The notes under the pieces were generated by a model. The model ran no database searches. It had not been told where the DNA came from and worked only from the letters and a program-made list of their open reading frames with translations. 35,893 nucleotides of DNA from Kiritimatiellales bacterium (GTDB lineage: Bacteria; Verrucomicrobiota; Kiritimatiellia; Kiritimatiellales; Pontiellaceae): NCBI GenBank assembly GCA_003246265.1, contig QKAU01000023.1:1-35893 (forward strand), given 5' to 3'. The position numbers and the translations under genes were made by a program. Below, piece by piece: positions 7,182 through 16,742 of the stretch (within the stretch, counting starts at the first letter, position 1; every line of letters begins with the position of its first letter).

Positions 7182-9455
7182 CTATTCGCCAGCGGCGGGC
7201 GCGAGGTTGCGCTCGACCAGGAAGGCTTCGATTTCACTGATGCGCCCCATGTCGAGCATCTGTTCGGCGATGCTCCGCGCATCCTCGAGCGTGATGGCCC
7301 CTACGAGGCGCTGGACCGTCGGCGCGTTGACGATGTCGATGCTGAAGTTCCGCAGGCCGATACCGAGCAGGAAGGGCAGCATGCGCGCATCGGCGGAAAG
7401 GTCGCCGCAGATCGAGACATCCTTGCCGTGGGTCTCGGCGGCGGCCACAATGCGGTGGATCGCGCGCAGGATCGCCGGGTGATGGGCAAGATAGAGGTTG
7501 GAGACCGCCTCGTTTGTCCGGTCGACCGCCAGCATGTACTGGATCAGGTCGTTCGATCCGATCGAGAGGAAGTCGGCCTCGAAGGCCAGCTCGTCGGCCA
7601 CCTCCACGGCCGAGGGCAGCTCCATCATGACGCCCAGCTTCGTCTTGCGGTTGAAGGGGATGCCGTCGCGGTCCAGCTCGTCCATGCATTCGTAGACAAT
7701 GTCGCGGGCGGCGATGAAGTCGTCGACCGACGAGATCAGGGGGAACATGATGCGCGAATGGCTGTCGGCCCCCGCGCGCAGGAAGGCGCGCAACTGCTGC
7801 GAAAAGATGTCGCGGTTGCGCAGCGAAAAGCGGATGGCGCGCATGCCGAGGAAGGGGTTGGCCTCGTTGACGTTGGAAAAGTAGGAGAGCATCTTGTCGC
7901 CGCCGATATCGAGCGTGCGGAAGGTGACGGGGCGCCCCTCCATCTGGTCGACGAGCTTGCGGTAGATGAAGAACTGCTCCTCCTCCGTGGGGAAGTCGTT
8001 GCGGACGATGAAGGGGAATTCGGAGCGGTACAGCCCGACCCCCTCGGCCTTGAACTGGCGGGCGGGCTGCAGGTCGCTCAGCAGGTTGATGTTCGCATAG
8101 ATCCGCACGCGCTCCCCGCACCGGGTAAGGGTCTTCTCCTTGACGTCCGACGCGTTGTGCAGGGCTTCCCAGGTGGCCTCCAGCTCGCGGTATTTGGCAT
8201 AGACCTCCTCGTCGGGATCGAGGTAGACGACCCCCTGCTCGGCATCCATGAGCAGCTCCTCGCCGTCGACGATGCCGTCGGCCAGGTCGCGGGCCACGGC
8301 GACCATCGGGATCCCAAGCGACCGGCAGATGATCGCGTTGTGCGAGGTCACGCCGCTGCTGACGATGAATCCTTCCACGTTTTCCGCGGAAAGCTTGAGG
8401 ATGTCCGAGGGCAGCAGTTCGTGGGCGATGATGATCTGCCCGCGGTAGTCGAACGCCCCCGACTCCTCGCCGAGGAGGTTGCGCACCAGGCGATTCCCCA
8501 AGTCTTTCACATCCAGCACCTTTTCGCGGATGAGCGGCATCTTGCTGGCGGAAAAGATCTCGACGTAGTCGTCGACCACCTTGGCGATCGCCTTCAGGGC
8601 GGGTTCCCCCTGTTCGATCAGGCGGCCGATCCGGCCGGTGAACTGGTCGTCCTCGAGGATCAGCTGGTGGGCGCTGAAGATCAGGACGGCCACGTCCGCC
8701 AGCGTTTCGCTGGTCTGGCGCTGGAGCGCGTCGATCTGCCGGGCGGTCACCTCGATGGCCGCCTTGAACTCCTCCAGGGAGTGGGGCGGCCGGCCCGGAT
8801 CGGGGAGCAGGCAGCTCTCGCTCTGCCCGGAGGAGAGGGTGAAGGCGCGGCCGCGGCCGATGCCGGGGCTGGCGGAGCGGCCGCGGAGGATGTGGATTTT
8901 CGCCTTCGGCGCGGTCGCCACCGCGGCGCGCGCCGCCTGCTCCCGGGCCTCGGTCAGCAGCTGCACGTTTTCGATCATGGTGGCGAGCTGGGCCGCGATG
9001 GCGCGCAAGGCCTTGGTGTCGTTCGCCGTAAAGCAGTTCATCTCCTTCGCCTGGACCACGAGCGCCCCGATGCGCCGCAGCCCGCGCAGGATCGGAACGG
9101 CGAGGAAGGCTTCGTACTCCTCCTCGTGGATGCCGGGGAAAAACTTGTAGGAGGGGTTTTTCGACGCCGTGCCGACGCAGATGGGCCGCAGCTCGCGCAC
9201 CGCGCGGCCGGTGATCCCCTCGCCCAGCTTGAGCTTGACGGAACCGACCGCCGCATCGCTCAGCCCCTGGGTGGCGCGCAGGGTGAGCTCCCTGCCCTCC
9301 TCGTCGTAGATGTAGATCGAGCAGACGTCGGCCTGCATGTGCTTCGCCACCGCCGTGACGACGTTCTTCAAGAGCTCCTTGCGGTCGCCGCCGCTCTCGG
9401 TGAGCGATATCAGTTCGGCGATGTCGCAGACCAGATCTACATTGCGCTTTCTCAT
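7182..9455 (-). CDS. ptsP: GAF-domain phosphoenolpyruvate-protein phosphotransferase (EI-Ntr)
   Basis: A 757-residue PtsP-type enzyme that autophosphorylates with PEP and passes the phosphate to an HPr-like (NPr) protein in the nitrogen-related PTS. An N-terminal GAF domain (about residues 15-165) is followed by the enzyme I fold. The phosphohistidine is His372 in SSGVTSHNAIICRS. PEP-binding motifs include FRTLDIGGDKML, SIGSNDLIQY and the catalytic-Cys region SICGDLSAD. The frame is open upstream to a GTG at 9548. I chose ATG 9455 because the GAF domain begins there and a good promoter lies at 9480-9508, downstream of that GTG. No HPr or EIIA-Ntr gene is visible. It is divergent from the E1/KASIII fusion gene. 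Confidence 0.93.
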   Translation of the reverse strand: MRKRNVDLVCDIAELISLTESGGDRKELLKNVVTAVAKHMQADVCSIYIYDEEGRELTLRATQGLSDAAVGSVKLKLGEGITGRAVRELRPICVGTASKNPSYKFFPGIHEEEYEAFLAVPILRGLRRIGALVVQAKEMNCFTANDTKALRAIAAQLATMIENVQLLTEAREQAARAAVATAPKAKIHILRGRSASPGIGRGRAFTLSSGQSESCLLPDPGRPPHSLEEFKAAIEVTARQIDALQRQTSETLADVAVLIFSAHQLILEDDQFTGRIGRLIEQGEPALKAIAKVVDDYVEIFSASKMPLIREKVLDVKDLGNRLVRNLLGEESGAFDYRGQIIIAHELLPSDILKLSAENVEGFIVSSGVTSHNAIICRSLGIPMVAVARDLADGIVDGEELLMDAEQGVVYLDPDEEVYAKYRELEATWEALHNASDVKEKTLTRCGERVRIYANINLLSDLQPARQFKAEGVGLYRSEFPFIVRNDFPTEEEQFFIYRKLVDQMEGRPVTFRTLDIGGDKMLSYFSNVNEANPFLGMRAIRFSLRNRDIFSQQLRAFLRAGADSHSRIMFPLISSVDDFIAARDIVYECMDELDRDGIPFNRKTKLGVMMELPSAVEVADELAFEADFLSIGSNDLIQYMLAVDRTNEAVSNLYLAHHPAILRAIHRIVAAAETHGKDVSICGDLSADARMLPFLLGIGLRNFSIDIVNAPTVQRLVGAITLEDARSIAEQMLDMGRISEIEAFLVERNLAPAAGE

Positions 9456-9479
9456 AGGGCACCCACTTGGACGGAACAC

Positions 9480-9508
9480 AGAATATCGGGTCGTCCGCCC
9501 CGTGTCAA
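9480..9508 (-). promoter_or_regulatory. sigma70-type promoter for ptsP
   Basis: On the minus strand, TTGACA (9508-9503, a perfect -35) is followed after exactly 17 bases by TATTCT (9485-9480). Predicted initiation near 9473 leaves a short leader of about 18 bases to the ATG at 9455 and rules against the upstream GTG as start. Confidence 0.65.
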
Positions 9509-9591
9509 AAGCGGGAGATAATACAATTTCCGCGTAGACCTCCCCCACGGGCTCCCCTACTATTTATCCCCAATCCAATAGCGGGAACACG

Positions 9592-12500
9592 ATGAACCCA
9601 CCCTCCGCAGAACAACTGCTCGACCTCTACCGCCCCATGATCGCCTCGCGCTATACCGACCGCCTCCAGGCGGCGGCCGCGCAGCGCGGCGAAGTCTTCT
9701 TCTACATCCCCTCCTCCGGCCACGAGGCGAGCGCGGCCCTGGCCCCCCACCTCGGGCCGGCCGACTGGCTCCACCTGCACTATCGCGACCGCGCCCTGGC
9801 CTACGCCCGCGGCGTCTCCTGCGAAACCGTCTTCCACGGCCTCTTCAGCAAGCAGGAGTCCAACTCGGCCGGCCGCCGCATGCCCGCCTTCCCCTGCGAC
9901 CCGAAGCTCAATATCCTGAGCACCCCGACCCTGGTCGGCAGCAACGTGCTCCAGGCCGTCGGCGTCGCCTCCGCGGTCGCGGACCAGCCCGGAAAACCCG
10001 TCGTGCTCGTCTCGGTCGGCGACGGCGCCACCCAGCAGGGCGACTTCTACGAAGCCGTCGCCGAGGCTGTTCGCGCCAACCTGCCGGTGCTCTTCCTGAT
10101 CGAGGACAACCGTTTCGCCCTCTCCACCCTCACCAAGGGCAATACCTTCTATTCGCTCCCCGGCGGCGACGCCGAGAGCTTCTACGGCCTGCCGATCCAC
10201 CGCGTCGACGGCTCGGATGCCGCCGCCACCTACGCCGTTTTCGGCGCAGTGGTCGAGCAGCTGCGCGCCACGCGCGGACCGCAGATCGTGGTATTCCAGG
10301 TCGAGCGCCTGGAAAGCCACACCAATGCCGACGACCAGAGCGTCTACCGCACCGAGGCCGAACTGCGGCAGGCCATGGAGAACGCCGACCCCTGCGTGCG
10401 GCTACGCGCGCGGCTCCTCGGCGAAGGCATTGCCGAAGAACAACTCAAGGCGATCGAAGACGCGGTGAAGGAGCAGGTCGACGCCGCCTTCCACACCGCC
10501 CGCAAGGGCACCGCGCCCAAACCCGAATTCGGCGCCAAGCGCCCCCTGCCCGCCCCGCGCGAGGAATACCTCGGCACGGCGGAGAACCGTACGCTCAGCA
10601 TGCTCGAAGCAATGCGCGAAACCCTCAAGGCCCGGCTGGCCCGCGATCCCGGAACCACCCTGCTCGGGCAGGACATCGAGGATCCCAAGGGCGACGTCTT
10701 CGGCCTGACGCGCGGCCTGAGCAAGGCCTTCCCGCAGCAGGTGCACAACGCCGCGCTGGCGGAAAACACCATCCTGGGCGTTGCCACCGGCCGCGCCCTG
10801 GCGGGCGGCCATCCCGTGGCCTTCATGCAGTTCGCCGACTTCCTGCCGGTGGCCTACAACCACATCCTGTCCGAAATCGGCGCGATGCATTGGCGCACCA
10901 ACGGCCAATGGGAGGCCCCGGTGCTGGTGATGTCGATCGCGGGCGGCTACCGCCCCGGTCTCGGTCCCTACCACGCCCAGACGATGGAGTCGATCTGCGC
11001 CCATGTTCCGGGCGTCGATGTCTTCATGCCCTCCACCGCGGCCGATGCCGCCGGCCTGCTCAACGCCATCGCCGAATCGGGTCGCCCGTCGGTCTTCCTT
11101 TTCCCCAAGAACCTGATCAACGACCGCTCCAACACCACCTCCGCCGATGTGGCAAGGCAGTATGTCCCGATCGGCAAGGCGCGCGTCGCGCGGGCGGGGC
11201 AGGAGATCACGATCGTGGGCTGGGGCGGCGCCATGCCGGTCTGTGAACGCACCGCCGAAGCGCTGGCCGAAATCGGAATCAATGCCGAAGTGATCGACCT
11301 GCGCACCATTTTCCCGTGGGACGAAGCCACCGTCCTCGCCTCCGCGCAGAAGACCGGCCGCCTTGTGATCGTCCACGAGGACAACCAGACCGCGGGCATG
11401 GGCGGCGAGATCGCCGCCACGGTCGTGGAAAAGGCGGAGGCCCCGGTGCGGATCGCACGCGTCGTGCGGCCCGACACCTACATCCCCTACGACTTCGCCT
11501 GCCAGATCGAAATCCTCCCCTCCTTCAGGCGCACGCTCGAAAAATGCTGCGAACTGCTCGACGTCGACCTCCATTGGGAAAAGCCGGTGGAGGAAGAGGC
11601 CGGGATCGTGACGGTCAAGGCGATCGGCTCCAGCCCCTCCGACCAGACCATTACCGTCGCCTCCCTGCCGGTCAAGGCGGGCGACGCCATCGCGGAGGGC
11701 GACCTGATCGCCGCCGTGGAGGCCGACAAGGCCTCGATGGACATCTCCGCGCCGGTCGGGGGGACGATCGCCGAGGTGCTGGTCGAGGAGGGCGATGTCC
11801 TCTCGGTCGGCACGCCGATGGTCAGGATCGCCTCGAGCGAGGCGGCGCAGCTCAAGCCGGTCACCAGGGAGGATCCGGGCACGCCGATCATGGAACGCCG
11901 CCGCGCGACCGTGGCGGTCGCGGCCCCGAAAGCCGCAGGCCCCAAGCCGCCGGCCACGATCTACATCTCCACCATCACCACCGTGCTGGGCTCGCGGCAT
12001 ATCACGAACGACGAGCTGCTGCAGGGCCACGGCGAATGGGATTCGGAGGCGATCCGCAAGCGGACCGGCATCGAAAACCGCTACTGGATCGACGGCGACG
12101 AAAACGTCCTCTCGCTGGCCGTCAAGGCCACGCGCGACCTGCTCGACAGGGAGAACCTGCGGATTTCGGACATCGGCGCGATCATCTGCTCCACCGGTAC
12201 GCCAATGGCCATGACCCCCTCGCTCGCCTGCCAGGTGCTCCACGCGCTGAGCCCCGAGAAGGGCGAGGTGCTGATGCAGGCGCACGATGTCAACGCCGCC
12301 TGCTCGGGCTACATGTATGCCATGCAGTCGGCCTTCGACTTCCTCACCAACGCCCCCGACAAGAAGGTGGTCGTCATTACCGCCGAAACCCTGTCGCCGA
12401 TGGTCAACCACAACGACCAGAAAACCCTGGCGCTCTTCGGCGATGCCGCCACGGCCTCGCTGGTCAGCTGCGAAATGCGGCCCGGCAACATCGGCGTCAG

Positions 12501-12918
12501 GCTCAACCGCCCCGTCCTTTCCGCCACCGGCGTCGAACCCAAGGTGCTCTACGTCCCCAACATGGGCAGCGGCGAGGTGATCGAAATGGAGGGGCTGACG
12601 GTCTTCAAGCTGGCGGTGCGCAAGATGATCGACATGCTCGACGACGCCTGCCGCGAACGGGGCATTACCGTCGAAGACCTCGCCTACATCGTGCCGCACC
12701 AGGCCAACGAGCGCATCATCGAGGCGATCCGCAAGACGATCCACTGCCCGCCGGCAAAGATGTTCAACCACATCCGCCTGTATGGGAACACCTCGTCGAA
12801 CACCATCCCGATCGCGCTCGCCGAGCTGGTCCCGACCGTGAAGGCCGACACCCTCATCGGCCTCACCGCCTTCGGCGGCGGCTTCACCTTCGGCGCCGCC
12901 GTCATCGAGAAGGTGTGA
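9592..12918 (+). CDS. Four-domain fusion: 2-oxoacid dehydrogenase E1 alpha + E1 beta + lipoyl domain + FabH-type ketosynthase III
   Basis: One uninterrupted 1108-residue chain. Residues 1-310 form E1 alpha, with the ThDP motif GDG at 143-145 through Asn173 and a branched-chain-type signature at 239-253 (RLESHTNADDQSVYR). Residues 330-660 form E1 beta (ENTILGVATGRALAGG, GPYHAQTMESICAHVPG). Residues 670-748 form a lipoyl domain with the modifiable Lys713 in EADKASMD. After a Pro/Ala-rich linker (750-788), residues 789-1108 form a complete KAS III with Cys904, His1036 and Asn1066, spaced 132 and 30 apart exactly as in E. coli FabH, and GGGFTFGA at the end. No E2 acyltransferase or E3-binding domain is present. 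It probably decarboxylates branched 2-oxoacids and primes branched-chain fatty acids; direct acyl transfer from lipoyl to Cys904 is my hypothesis. The ribosome site is weak (GGGAAC). Confidence 0.93.
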   Translation: MNPPSAEQLLDLYRPMIASRYTDRLQAAAAQRGEVFFYIPSSGHEASAALAPHLGPADWLHLHYRDRALAYARGVSCETVFHGLFSKQESNSAGRRMPAFPCDPKLNILSTPTLVGSNVLQAVGVASAVADQPGKPVVLVSVGDGATQQGDFYEAVAEAVRANLPVLFLIEDNRFALSTLTKGNTFYSLPGGDAESFYGLPIHRVDGSDAAATYAVFGAVVEQLRATRGPQIVVFQVERLESHTNADDQSVYRTEAELRQAMENADPCVRLRARLLGEGIAEEQLKAIEDAVKEQVDAAFHTARKGTAPKPEFGAKRPLPAPREEYLGTAENRTLSMLEAMRETLKARLARDPGTTLLGQDIEDPKGDVFGLTRGLSKAFPQQVHNAALAENTILGVATGRALAGGHPVAFMQFADFLPVAYNHILSEIGAMHWRTNGQWEAPVLVMSIAGGYRPGLGPYHAQTMESICAHVPGVDVFMPSTAADAAGLLNAIAESGRPSVFLFPKNLINDRSNTTSADVARQYVPIGKARVARAGQEITIVGWGGAMPVCERTAEALAEIGINAEVIDLRTIFPWDEATVLASAQKTGRLVIVHEDNQTAGMGGEIAATVVEKAEAPVRIARVVRPDTYIPYDFACQIEILPSFRRTLEKCCELLDVDLHWEKPVEEEAGIVTVKAIGSSPSDQTITVASLPVKAGDAIAEGDLIAAVEADKASMDISAPVGGTIAEVLVEEGDVLSVGTPMVRIASSEAAQLKPVTREDPGTPIMERRRATVAVAAPKAAGPKPPATIYISTITTVLGSRHITNDELLQGHGEWDSEAIRKRTGIENRYWIDGDENVLSLAVKATRDLLDRENLRISDIGAIICSTGTPMAMTPSLACQVLHALSPEKGEVLMQAHDVNAACSGYMYAMQSAFDFLTNAPDKKVVVITAETLSPMVNHNDQKTLALFGDAATASLVSCEMRPGNIGVRLNRPVLSATGVEPKVLYVPNMGSGEVIEMEGLTVFKLAVRKMIDMLDDACRERGITVEDLAYIVPHQANERIIEAIRKTIHCPPAKMFNHIRLYGNTSSNTIPIALAELVPTVKADTLIGLTAFGGGFTFGAAVIEKV

Positions 12919-13339: not shown

Positions 13340-14089
13340 CTACCACGCAGCTGGATCAATGGGAGGCAGCTTCAATTCCGGCAACTCGACCGCGAGGGGG
13401 GCCGGGGGCGCATCGGTCCATTCGACCTTGTCCCTGAGCCAGGAAGGGAGGCACACATCCCGCGCCAGCGGTTCGCTTTCCAATGCCGGACCGCTCACCT
13501 TGAACCAGACGCCCATCTCCTTGACTTCCGACTGCTTGACCTTGTTCGTGATGGGCGGGCCGGATTCGATCCGAACAGATTCTTGGGCATAGGTGCGCTC
13601 CAGCATCACCTTTTCCGTTTTCTTGTCCACCCTTCCATGGGGCGGAACTTGATCGATCAATACGAATCCGTGAACCCGCCGCACGCTGTCCTCGCCCCCC
13701 CTGAGTTGCTTCACCTCGATGAAGATGCAATACTTGATCTTCAGGCCCCGGATGGGCAGGTCGGTCCGGTTCTCCAGCGTCAAGGTGTAGTGCAGCTCCT
13801 GCCCGTTCCTCACCTCGTCGGCGGTGATCCGCAGATTCCGGTCCGACAGGAAGAGCCGGGCGACGCGCCACGCCCTGACGTACGCCCGGTCCTCGGCGGA
13901 GAAGACATCGGGTTGCACCCACGCCTTCTGTCCGTTGCGGCGTTCCACCTCGATCGATCCGTCGGGCTTCGAATCGACGATCCGCGCCTCGATCGTCCGC
14001 CCCTGCAGGTCGGTAAAGACCCGGTATGCCTCCTCGCCCCGGCTCCACGCCGCCAGCGCAACAAAACAAGCCATCAACAACCTTTTCAC
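13340..14089 (-). CDS. Exported SHD1-domain protein (first of a paralogous pair)
   Basis: A 249-residue protein with a signal peptide (VKRLLMACFVALAAW). Residues 22-75 form an SLA1-homology-1-like domain (YRVFTDLQGRTIEARI, then WVQPDVFSAEDRAYVRAW), a module frequent in exported proteins of planctomycetes and verrucomicrobia. The rest is a beta-rich region of unknown function (LHYTLTLENRTDLPIRGLKI). The GTG start at 14089 has GGAGGGG just upstream; the frame continues upstream, but into the neighbouring gene. It follows its paralogue by 10 bases, so the two are probably co-transcribed. The biochemical role is unknown. Confidence 0.75.
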   Translation of the reverse strand: MKRLLMACFVALAAWSRGEEAYRVFTDLQGRTIEARIVDSKPDGSIEVERRNGQKAWVQPDVFSAEDRAYVRAWRVARLFLSDRNLRITADEVRNGQELHYTLTLENRTDLPIRGLKIKYCIFIEVKQLRGGEDSVRRVHGFVLIDQVPPHGRVDKKTEKVMLERTYAQESVRIESGPPITNKVKQSEVKEMGVWFKVSGPALESEPLARDVCLPSWLRDKVEWTDAPPAPLAVELPELKLPPIDPAAW

Positions 14090-14099
14090 AACCCCTCCA

Positions 14100-14936
14100 T
14101 TACCGCGGGTCCGGTCGCCACGGATGCTCCATCTTCTCTGCAAGATCCTTCGGATAGGCATAGAGCTTCGTCGCCACCCCGCCCGATGGGAGCGGAACGG
14201 ACAGGTGGACGATGATGCCAATGGCCTCCTCGTCGACCTGCCTGAGCTTGGAGGTTCTTTTCTGCCCTATGGTGGCGGCCACATCCTCGCCCTTCGCCTC
14301 CACGCCCTCCCGCAGGCGGATGGAGGAGGTCACGATATCGCTGCACCCCTTCCATTCGATCTCCGCCACGTCGTAGGATCCATCCGTGGTCAAAACCGAT
14401 TCCTCGTCCCGAAGCTTCTTCGTGGAAATCCCATACCATCCCGAAATGCTGCCGTTGCTGCGGTATTCCGATTCCACCTCCTTCAACTTGTACTCGCGAC
14501 GGTGGTAGATGCGGTACTCGACCTTGATCCGGCAAAGGGTATCGCGGTTGCGGTTCTCAAGGTGGATGGCATAGGCAATGTCGTCGTAGTCCATGCCGGG
14601 ATAATGCGATTGCCAACCCTCGAGATCGCCATGGTACCGGTCCGATGCAACCACCTTCTTCTCAATCCCCACGACCAGGTTCTTCTCCGAAAGCATGACC
14701 GTCGAGAGGTACCACTCCCGGATGAACGCCTGGTCCTCCCCGGAAAAGATGGTTATGGGCGCCTGCTTCAGGGTTCCGTTTACCAGCTGCACCTTGACCG
14801 TGCCCGAAAGCGGATCGAACGCCAGCAGCCTGGCCTCCAGCGCCCTGCCCTGCTGGTCCGTGAACGCCCGCATGTCCCCCGCGCCCATGCAGTTCATGGC
14901 CAGCAAGACCAGCCACCCCGCCAACATCCTTTTCAT
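14100..14936 (-). CDS. Exported SHD1-domain protein (second of a paralogous pair)
   Basis: A 278-residue protein with a signal peptide (MKRMLAGWLVLLAMNCMGAG) and the same order of parts as the downstream gene: an SHD1-like domain (MRAFTDQQGRALEARLLA, then IFSGEDQAFIREWYLS), then a beta-rich region with a shared pattern of strand, ENR, and a basic strand (YAIHLENRNRDTLCRIKVEY). The resemblance indicates tandem duplication followed by strong divergence. The ATG at 14936 is preceded by a G-rich ribosome site. The 263-base gap upstream (14937-15199) is AT-rich and probably carries divergent promoters, though no clear -35/-10 pair was found. Function unknown. Confidence 0.75.
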   Translation of the reverse strand: MKRMLAGWLVLLAMNCMGAGDMRAFTDQQGRALEARLLAFDPLSGTVKVQLVNGTLKQAPITIFSGEDQAFIREWYLSTVMLSEKNLVVGIEKKVVASDRYHGDLEGWQSHYPGMDYDDIAYAIHLENRNRDTLCRIKVEYRIYHRREYKLKEVESEYRSNGSISGWYGISTKKLRDEESVLTTDGSYDVAEIEWKGCSDIVTSSIRLREGVEAKGEDVAATIGQKRTSKLRQVDEEAIGIIVHLSVPLPSGGVATKLYAYPKDLAEKMEHPWRPDPR

Positions 14937-15199
14937 GCCTGCCCCCATGTTAGCCAGCCCTGTCCCCGGCCATGATTCAAAATTCTTTCGCATTTGCGAT
15001 TCCGATTCAAGCCCTTCGCCATCTACCGCATTAATTGCACGGAATTCACCGAAGCCCTTCTTCCAACCGCCCGCCCACCTCTTTCCAATAGCAAATATTA
15101 CTAATAATATTTTCCGTTATGGTTTTTTCATCACGTCTCTTTTGTCTACTTATTTGCGCGGGTCGCAATGGAGCGGTCCATCAACCCAGGAGACGTACC

Positions 15200-15583: not shown

Positions 15584-16612
15584 TCAAGGCCGCCCGGCCA
15601 GTCCCCGGGCCGCCGCCAGGATCTGGTCCGGATCCAGCCGTACCTTGTAGTCGGGGTCGGCATGGGCGAACCTGACGATGCCATCCGTTCCCACCACGAA
15701 AACGGCGGGCACGGGGAGCATGTGGTGCTGCTCGCCCGAAGCCGCCTCGAGGTCGATTCCGTATTCCCCGTATTTCGCCAGCGTGTCCTCGTCGACCGCG
15801 AAGGCCAGTCCGAAGGCTCTCGCGGCATGCATGGAGGAGTCGGAGAGCAGGGTATAGGCAAGGTGGTGCTTCTCCGCCGTTTCCTTCAACTTGTCGGGCC
15901 GGTCGGGGCTGATGGCCAGGAGACGGAAGCCGAGATTCCTCAGCGGTTCTTCGATCTCCCGGAGGCGGGAGAGGTGGGCATTGCAGTAGGGACACCATCC
16001 GCCCCGGTAGAAGATCAACACCAGCGGCTGCCGTCTGGAGGCCTCCTGCAGGTCGAACGTTTCCCCGCCGGCGGTCTCGAGGAAGACGGCGGGCACGGCG
16101 TCGCCCACGGCCAGGGGCCGCTCCCTCGGGGGCGGGGCTGCCAGCGGATGGAAGGCGAGCGAGGCGGAGTTGATGCAATAGCGCAGCCCGGTCGGCGGCG
16201 GCCCGTCGGGGAAGACGTGGCCGAGGTGCGCCTCGCATTTCGAGCAGACCACCTCCGTGCGGACCATGCCGTGGGAGGTGTCGCGGTGTTCCACGACGAC
16301 ATCCTCCGCGATAGGCCGGAAATAGCTGGGCCATCCGCAGCCCGAGTCGAACTTCGTGTCGGAGAGGAAAAGCGCCTGCCCGCAGCAGACGCAGGAGTAG
16401 GTGCCCAGCTCCTTGTGGTTCCAATAGGCTCCCGCATAGGGGCGCTCCGTCCCCTTCTGCCGCGTCACGCGATACTGCTCCGGCGTCAGCTGCGCCTTCC
16501 ATTCGGCATCGGTCTTCATCACCTTCGGTTCCACGGTATCCCCCTTCTCCTTCGCACAAGCGGCCGTGGCCAGCGCGGCCAGCAGCATAAGCGTTTTCGT
16601 TCCTCGCATCAT
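15584..16612 (-). CDS. Lipoprotein fusing methionine sulfoxide reductase B to a peroxiredoxin-like domain
   Basis: A 342-residue protein. The N-terminus ([19 protein letters not shown]) suggests a lipoprotein anchored at Cys19, although the lipobox is not perfect. Residues 33-156 form MsrB: zinc pairs Cys74/Cys77 and Cys123/Cys126, the CGWPSY motif, and catalytic Cys146 in [11 protein letters not shown]. MsrB reduces methionine-R-sulfoxide. Residues 165-342 form an AhpC/TSA-type thioredoxin fold with Cys207-Pro-Tyr-Cys210 in [14 protein letters not shown]. That domain could supply reducing power to MsrB or remove peroxide (inference). GGAGG is 6 bases before the ATG at 16612. Envelope repair of oxidised proteins is the likely job. 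Confidence 0.88.
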
Positions 16613-16742
16613 GGTCGACCTCCGCAATGGTGACAGCCCTTCGCGGACGCTGTTCAATCATGGATCGTCTTTCCTCCAGCCCGGGATTGCGCCCGGCGCG
16701 CAGGGCGACTAGCTTTCCCCTGTTCCGGAGGATGTAGCCGAG

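Follow-up and report, generated by a model that had tools for sequence, protein, structure and literature searches.

In the textbook route of bacterial initiation, an oxoacid gives rise to acyl-coenzyme A (acyl-CoA), which in turn feeds the ketosynthase FabH. A gene on contig QKAU01000023.1 (Kiritimatiellales bacterium, assembly GCA_003246265.1) raises the question of whether the CoA step can be skipped. The gene lies in a stretch of 35,893 nucleotides, hereafter the window, and encodes a chain of 1108 residues that joins the E1 alpha and E1 beta parts of a 2-oxoacid dehydrogenase, a lipoyl domain and a FabH-type β-ketoacyl-acyl carrier protein (ACP) synthase III (KAS III). The reading favoured here, with a probability of roughly two in three, is that this fusion initiates branched fatty acid synthesis as a single-chain enzyme, which would use 2-oxoisovalerate as substrate and transfer the acyl group from the lipoyl arm to Cys904 without CoA.

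Architecture and catalytic residues

The reading frame is unbroken from the ATG at 9592 to the stop codon at 12916-12918 (+ strand). From the N- to the C-terminus, the protein consists of E1 alpha, E1 beta and lipoyl domains, an Ala/Pro-rich disordered linker and the KAS III domain (Table 1). All Pfam matches exceed the curated cut-offs: E1_dh, Transket_pyr, Transketolase_C and Biotin_lipoyl in the dehydrogenase part, ACP_syn_III (residues 899-964) and its C-terminal domain (1020-1106) in the KAS III part, which also reaches 265 bits (cut-off 249) with the NCBIfam FabH-like model PRK09352. None of the curated Pfam or NCBIfam models covers the whole chain. The E2 catalytic domain (PF00198), any E2-type acyltransferase, an E3-binding domain and an ACP domain are absent from the Pfam scan of the protein. 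The first-pass annotation had described one uninterrupted frame with four enzyme modules, in which a ketosynthase takes the place of the missing E2 acyltransferase; the frame and the Pfam matches bear out both statements. The AlphaFold2 monomer model (mean predicted local distance difference test, pLDDT, 79.6; predicted template modelling score, pTM, 0.63) agrees with this layout: residues 786-1108 superpose on FabH structures (Z 36-38) and residues 328-658 on E1 beta structures (Z about 36). Between the lipoyl and KAS III domains the pLDDT falls below 50 at residues 752-762 and 771-786, indicating disorder. The linker measures 34-44 residues across orthologs (13% Ala, 12% Pro).

Residue conservation was counted over 47 distinct full-length orthologs from Pontiella-type Kiritimatiellae, other Verrucomicrobiota and one complete planctomycete chromosome. 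N173, E391, H461, H595, K713, C904, H1036 and N1066 are invariant, and the thiamine diphosphate (ThDP) motif GDG143-145 varies solely at Asp144, which is Glu in 3 of the 47. C904, H1036 and N1066 align with C112, H244 and N274 of E. coli K-12 FabH at identical spacing (132 and 30 residues), and an NTSS motif is invariant along with the latter two. The catalytic residues and FabH spacing listed in the first-pass annotation are therefore correct. The protein thus has the alpha/beta-type E1, with ThDP motif and catalytic residues, and the lipoyl domain with acceptor lysine of a 2-oxoacid dehydrogenase, but not the E2 catalytic domain that passes the acyl group to CoA. From FabH it has the KAS III fold, the Cys-His-Asn triad and the ACP-docking Arg249, but not the CoA-adenine contacts.

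Loss of the CoA-adenine contacts

In FabH, Thr28 forms a hydrogen bond with the CoA adenine, which is stacked between Trp32 and Arg151, while the pantetheine is bound by Arg36 and a pair of Asn residues (PMC4606726). A fused KAS III that receives its acyl group from the lipoyl arm rather than from CoA is expected to lose the contacts to the CoA nucleotide and to keep those to the ACP. Aligned to E. coli FabH, Thr28, Trp32 and Arg151 each occur in 0 of 47 fused KAS III domains, but in every one of the 20 distinct stand-alone FabH proteins compared from this class, the host's own included. ACP-docking Arg249 is kept in all 47 fusions, and on the pantetheine side Arg36 is kept in 40 of 47 and Asn247 in 41 of 41. 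As judged from the alignment, the residues that bind the CoA nucleotide are lost from the fused KAS III and those for condensation and ACP docking are retained. Position 87, which shapes the acyl pocket of FabH, is Thr in 47/47 fusions and Phe in E. coli FabH and most separate FabH of the class, suggesting a roomier pocket.

Partner enzymes and fatty acids

The fusion is the sole E1_dh match in the host genome, and the sole E2 catalytic domain adjoins an AceE-type pyruvate dehydrogenase (PDH) E1. The host accordingly has no dedicated E2 and no second E1 of this family; E3, LipA and FabH are present. Of the separate fabH and E2 genes that the first-pass annotation had suggested looking for, the host has fabH (L081) but no dedicated E2 partner of the fusion. 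The fusion is likewise the only E1_dh match in five other genomes (G015, G023, G024, which is one contig, G027 and G031). E3 (TIGR01350, above cut-off) and LipA occur in 12 of 12 fusion genomes checked, an E2 of some kind in every one checked, and a separate FabH in several besides the host. With a separate FabH at hand, the fusion does not simply substitute for FabH in using acetyl starters.

An isobutyryl starter, derived from 2-oxoisovalerate of the valine pathway, yields even-numbered iso acids. These are prominent in the relatives that have been cultured: the major fatty acids of P. desulfatans and P. sulfatireligans are C18:0, i-C12:0, i-C14:0 and i-C18:0, with i-C16:0 also present (PMC7356697), and those of P. 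agarivorans are C18:0, i-C12:0, i-C18:0 and i-C14:0 (PMC10880615). The even-numbered iso acids point to 2-oxoisovalerate and isobutyryl as the starter source. Neither anteiso nor odd-numbered iso acids are listed as major for these Pontiella (PMC7356697, PMC10880615), so that the starter looks restricted. Of the iso/anteiso starter module suggested in the first-pass annotation, the iso part fits the published i-C12 to i-C18 series; a general iso/anteiso supply does not.

Distribution and origin

The window belongs to an assembly of 3.0 Mb that is 96% complete. The same domain order, at 46-83% identity, occurs in isolates and metagenome-assembled genomes (MAGs) from many sources, including a complete chromosome of 6.6 Mb. 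Of the 346 genomes of the class, 60 have the gene (E <1e-90). Among these are nearly all genomes of the host family, with two exceptions of 72% and 84% completeness, and 14/14 genomes of a second family (f2). Named carriers include Pontiella, Pontiellaceae and Kiritimatiellales, among them the P. sulfatireligans F21 type strain (L074). Beyond these, the fusion is found in other Verrucomicrobiota (families f61, f65 and f72, and Verrucomicrobiota bacterium JB024) and on the complete chromosome of Planctomycetales bacterium 10988. Database searches thus show the order, whose catalogue status the first-pass annotation had left undecided, to recur in Kiritimatiellae, other Verrucomicrobiota and a planctomycete. 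Recurrence in so many independent genomes excludes chance and assembly error, and the presence of the order in isolates, MAGs, single-contig genomes and a complete chromosome rules out a chimera of this assembly. A non-functional fusion is hardly credible either: all catalytic sites are conserved in the 47 orthologs, single-contig genomes among them, and nothing was found that favours such a reading. A search of the open-access literature found no paper on this architecture; the nearest precedent it brought up is QncN/QncL.

Two relatives deviate in form. In a Thiotrichales-labelled MAG (Gammaproteobacteria, L077:6643-9143), the fusion is cut by the contig end within the KAS III part; its occurrence there reflects either horizontal transfer or mis-binning. 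In a single-contig genome of family f2 (G032, L039:6851-8200, + strand), the frame is extended at its N-terminus by about 409 residues that match no Pfam family; the extension is probably read-through from 5′ of the true start, or else an extra domain. Plasmid homologs match just the E1 or the E1-lipoyl part, never the whole. A scan of viral contigs, based on short patterns able to detect close relatives only, found no relative of the fusion.

In a tree of E1 beta, all 27 KAS fusions sampled form one clade (support 100/99). The sister group of this clade comprises the single-chain E1-lipoyl-E2 proteins L108-L117, which come from other Verrucomicrobiota, together with two E1 proteins from Streptomyces plasmids. 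For KAS III, too, the fused domains form one clade apart from separate FabH (100/100). On these trees, it is a reasonable reading that KAS III replaced E2 behind the lipoyl domain once, and that the pair was then inherited together, with some transfer between phyla. The proteins L108-L117 (e.g., L113:2775-5924) carry E1alpha-E1beta-lipoyl-E2 on one polypeptide, in frames of about 1010-1470 residues. On the Streptomyces plasmids (L082:11959-26226, L083:9878-21869), a single-chain E1alpha/beta gene lies directly 5′ of a nonribosomal peptide synthetase/polyketide synthase (NRPS/PKS) that starts with lipoyl-E2-ACP-KS (KS, ketosynthase) and is flanked by ABC-F, SARP and p-aminophenylalanine-type genes. 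These flanks hint at a streptogramin-like product, and the loading module may be charged through the lipoyl group.

Proposed mechanism and alternatives

The fused E1, with ThDP, would decarboxylate a 2-oxoacid, most likely 2-oxoisovalerate, and reductively acylate the lipoyl group on Lys713. The flexible linker would let the lipoyl domain swing to the adjacent KAS III, where isobutyryl would be handed directly to Cys904, without CoA, and condensed with malonyl-ACP to 4-methyl-3-oxopentanoyl-ACP. Normal elongation of this product would give even-numbered iso acids. Free cellular E3 would re-oxidise the dihydrolipoyl group, and the ordinary FabH encoded elsewhere would start straight chains. From the sequence we infer each of the steps involved: lipoylation of Lys713, transfer to Cys904, condensation with malonyl-ACP, and the identity of substrate and product. 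The CoA-free transfer put forward in the first-pass annotation is supported by the missing CoA-adenine clamp, which none of the fused KAS III domains retains, by the lack of a dedicated E2 and by the E2-bearing sister group, and is still reached by inference.

The same CoA-free mechanism might act mainly on pyruvate or another 2-oxoacid, which would lead to acetyl-started straight chains instead of iso acids. This is unlikely. The NCBIfam matches of the E1 part are indeed to PDH-type models, all below cut-off, and the organisms also make much C18:0; yet acetyl starters are already served by an AceE-type PDH and a separate FabH whose CoA-binding residues are complete, and Thr87 hints at a roomier acyl pocket. 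Even-numbered iso acids, moreover, cannot be made without a supply of isobutyryl, and G000, G024 and G027 showed no further E1 of this family. Less probable again is a division of labour in which E1-lipoyl makes acyl-CoA with an E2 in trans, for instance that of PDH, and the tethered KAS III takes the CoA ester, so that the fusion provides proximity only. FabH enzymes normally accept acyl-CoA and no fusion genome checked is devoid of E2, but Thr28, Trp32 and Arg151 would hardly be missing from all fused KAS III domains if this were so, and the one E2 of the host stands next to AceE. The KAS III could also act as an acyltransferase, moving isobutyryl from lipoyl to holo-ACP and leaving the first condensation to another ketosynthase, as in QncL and lipoyl-E2-ACP systems. 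Although QncN/QncL/QncM do hand a lipoyl-borne acyl group to an ACP (PMC6335953), this role is improbable for a domain in which His1036 and Asn1066, needed in FabH for malonyl decarboxylation, are invariant together with the NTSS motif.

Several observations weigh against the favoured reading. Position 28 is Trp in 36 of the 47 fusions, one helical turn from Trp32, and this residue might partially substitute for Trp32. The assignment of 2-oxoisovalerate comes from published lipid profiles and not from pocket residues, and no genome in the surveys for the fusion could be recognised as that of Kiritimatiella glycovorans, a species with 42% i-C14:0. Because the fusion has no E3-binding domain, E3 must act in trans. 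Five genomes (G005, G021, G001, G032 and G030) carry a further E1-E3-E2 set, a potential maker of acyl-CoA, so not every fusion genome lacks a complex that could produce it. Finally, the support consists of sequence, a structural model and published lipids.

Genomic neighbourhood

No conserved gene cluster surrounds the fusion across the families compared. Its neighbours are PtsP and an ammonium transporter (Amt) in Pontiellaceae and f2; RNase E/G, FtsW/RodA, a penicillin-binding protein (PBP), MreC and MreB in f6; glutamate synthase in f16; and a ComM-like protein in the planctomycete. The divergent PtsP-like neighbour is not thought to be functionally linked to the fusion. The lack of a shared cluster is in keeping with a housekeeping enzyme that stands by itself, and it speaks against a secondary metabolite. 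A secondary-metabolite cluster is ruled out, as the neighbours are ordinary genes that differ between families, and the secondary lipid offered as an option in the first-pass annotation loses ground with it.

A second 2-oxoacid dehydrogenase set is present in some Pontiella genomes and absent from that of the window. In L136 (G005:C1:2004000-2012000), it comprises an E1 frame of about 825 residues, 27% identical to the E1 beta of the fusion, followed by E3 and E2. Elsewhere in the window, a protein of 357 residues fuses an MsrB (SelR) domain to an AhpC/Redoxin-type domain (15584-16657, - strand), and two overlapping frames (13340-14221 and 14100-14993, - strand) have no Pfam match and weak relatives in other Pontiella loci.

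Table 1. Features of the fusion gene and its neighbour, in window coordinates.
Feature	Position	Strand	Basis
Whole gene, E1alpha-E1beta-lipoyl-KAS III single-chain protein, 1108 aa	9592..12918	+	Frame and orthologs
E1 alpha domain, residues 14-311, ThDP motif GDG143-145...N173	9631..10524	+	PF00676 (E1_dh), 1.4e-45
E1 beta domains, Transket_pyr 335-509 and Transketolase_C 528-634	10594..11493	+	Pfam (PF02779, PF02780)
Lipoyl domain, about residues 675-750	11614..11841	+	PF00364 (Biotin_lipoyl), 2.1e-16 at 689-746
Lys713, predicted lipoylation site, EADKA motif	11728..11730	+	Invariant in 47 orthologs
Ala/Pro-rich flexible linker 751-789, predicted swinging arm	11842..11958	+	Ortholog composition and AlphaFold2 pLDDT
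KAS III (FabH-type) domain, residues 790-1108	11959..12915	+	Pfam, NCBIfam, AlphaFold2 superposition
W816 and A820, at FabH Thr28 and Trp32 positions (CoA-adenine contacts)	12037..12051	+	Thr28/Trp32 absent in 47/47 fusions
T875, at FabH position 87	12214..12216	+	Alignment
Cys904, predicted acyl-accepting nucleophile	12301..12303	+	Aligns with FabH Cys112; 47/47
Q943, at FabH Arg151 position (CoA-adenine contact)	12418..12420	+	Arg in 0/47 fusions, in all separate FabH
His1036, Cys-His-Asn triad	12697..12699	+	Aligns with His244; 47/47
Asn1066, Cys-His-Asn triad	12787..12789	+	Aligns with Asn274; 47/47
PtsP-like divergent neighbour (GAF and PEP-utilizer)	7182..9548	-	Kept in host family and family f2 only

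Comparison with known systems and significance

The closest functional counterpart is the branched-chain 2-oxoacid dehydrogenase (BCKDH; E1/E2/E3) working with a separate FabH. Both arrangements have E1 alpha/beta and lipoyl domains, a KAS III fold with its triad and iso fatty acids as expected product; in the fusion, all is on a single chain, and the E2 and CoA step are replaced by a KAS III lacking the CoA-adenine contacts. In QncN/QncL/QncM, a C2 unit is made and attached through ThDP, lipoyl and acyltransferase domains and an ACP (PMC6335953). These proteins and SclQ1-4 resemble the fusion in leading from a ThDP enzyme through lipoyl to a downstream acceptor without free CoA (PMC6335953), so that the chemistry has a precedent. 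They differ in using a ketose phosphate as substrate, in being separate proteins and in employing an acyltransferase-type domain and an ACP. Their glycolicacyl-ACP serves nonribosomal peptides, a secondary metabolite, unlike fatty acid initiation, and the fusion has neither the acyltransferase, nor the dedicated ACP, nor the biosynthetic cluster of such systems. The Streptomyces L082/L083 proteins share a closely related E1 part (E1 beta tree) and feed an acyl group towards a ketosynthase; however, they are two proteins, retain an E2-type domain and an ACP, and use the KS of a type I PKS. The Verrucomicrobiota E1-lipoyl-E2 proteins follow the same order as the fusion up to the lipoyl domain, but end in an E2 catalytic domain (PF00198), so acyl-CoA is their expected product. 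By this comparison, the component families are all known, and what appears to be new is a KAS III as direct acyl acceptor, on a single chain, in apparent primary lipid synthesis.

Whether initiation can bypass CoA is readily tested on the fusion, in species that can be cultured and whose lipids match the proposal. Absence of the three CoA-adenine contacts is a sequence signature by which lipoyl-fed ketosynthases may be sought elsewhere, and the compact single chain could serve branched fatty acid production without raised acyl-CoA pools. It seems somewhat more probable than its opposite that the family represents a widespread, CoA-independent initiation of membrane fatty acids, in which the lipoyl arm would feed the ketosynthase Cys directly, replacing BCKDH E2 and acyl-CoA, and one polypeptide would combine oxidative decarboxylation with the first Claisen condensation. 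Pontiella-type marine bacteria that carry the fusion would then probably start their branched membrane lipids without CoA.

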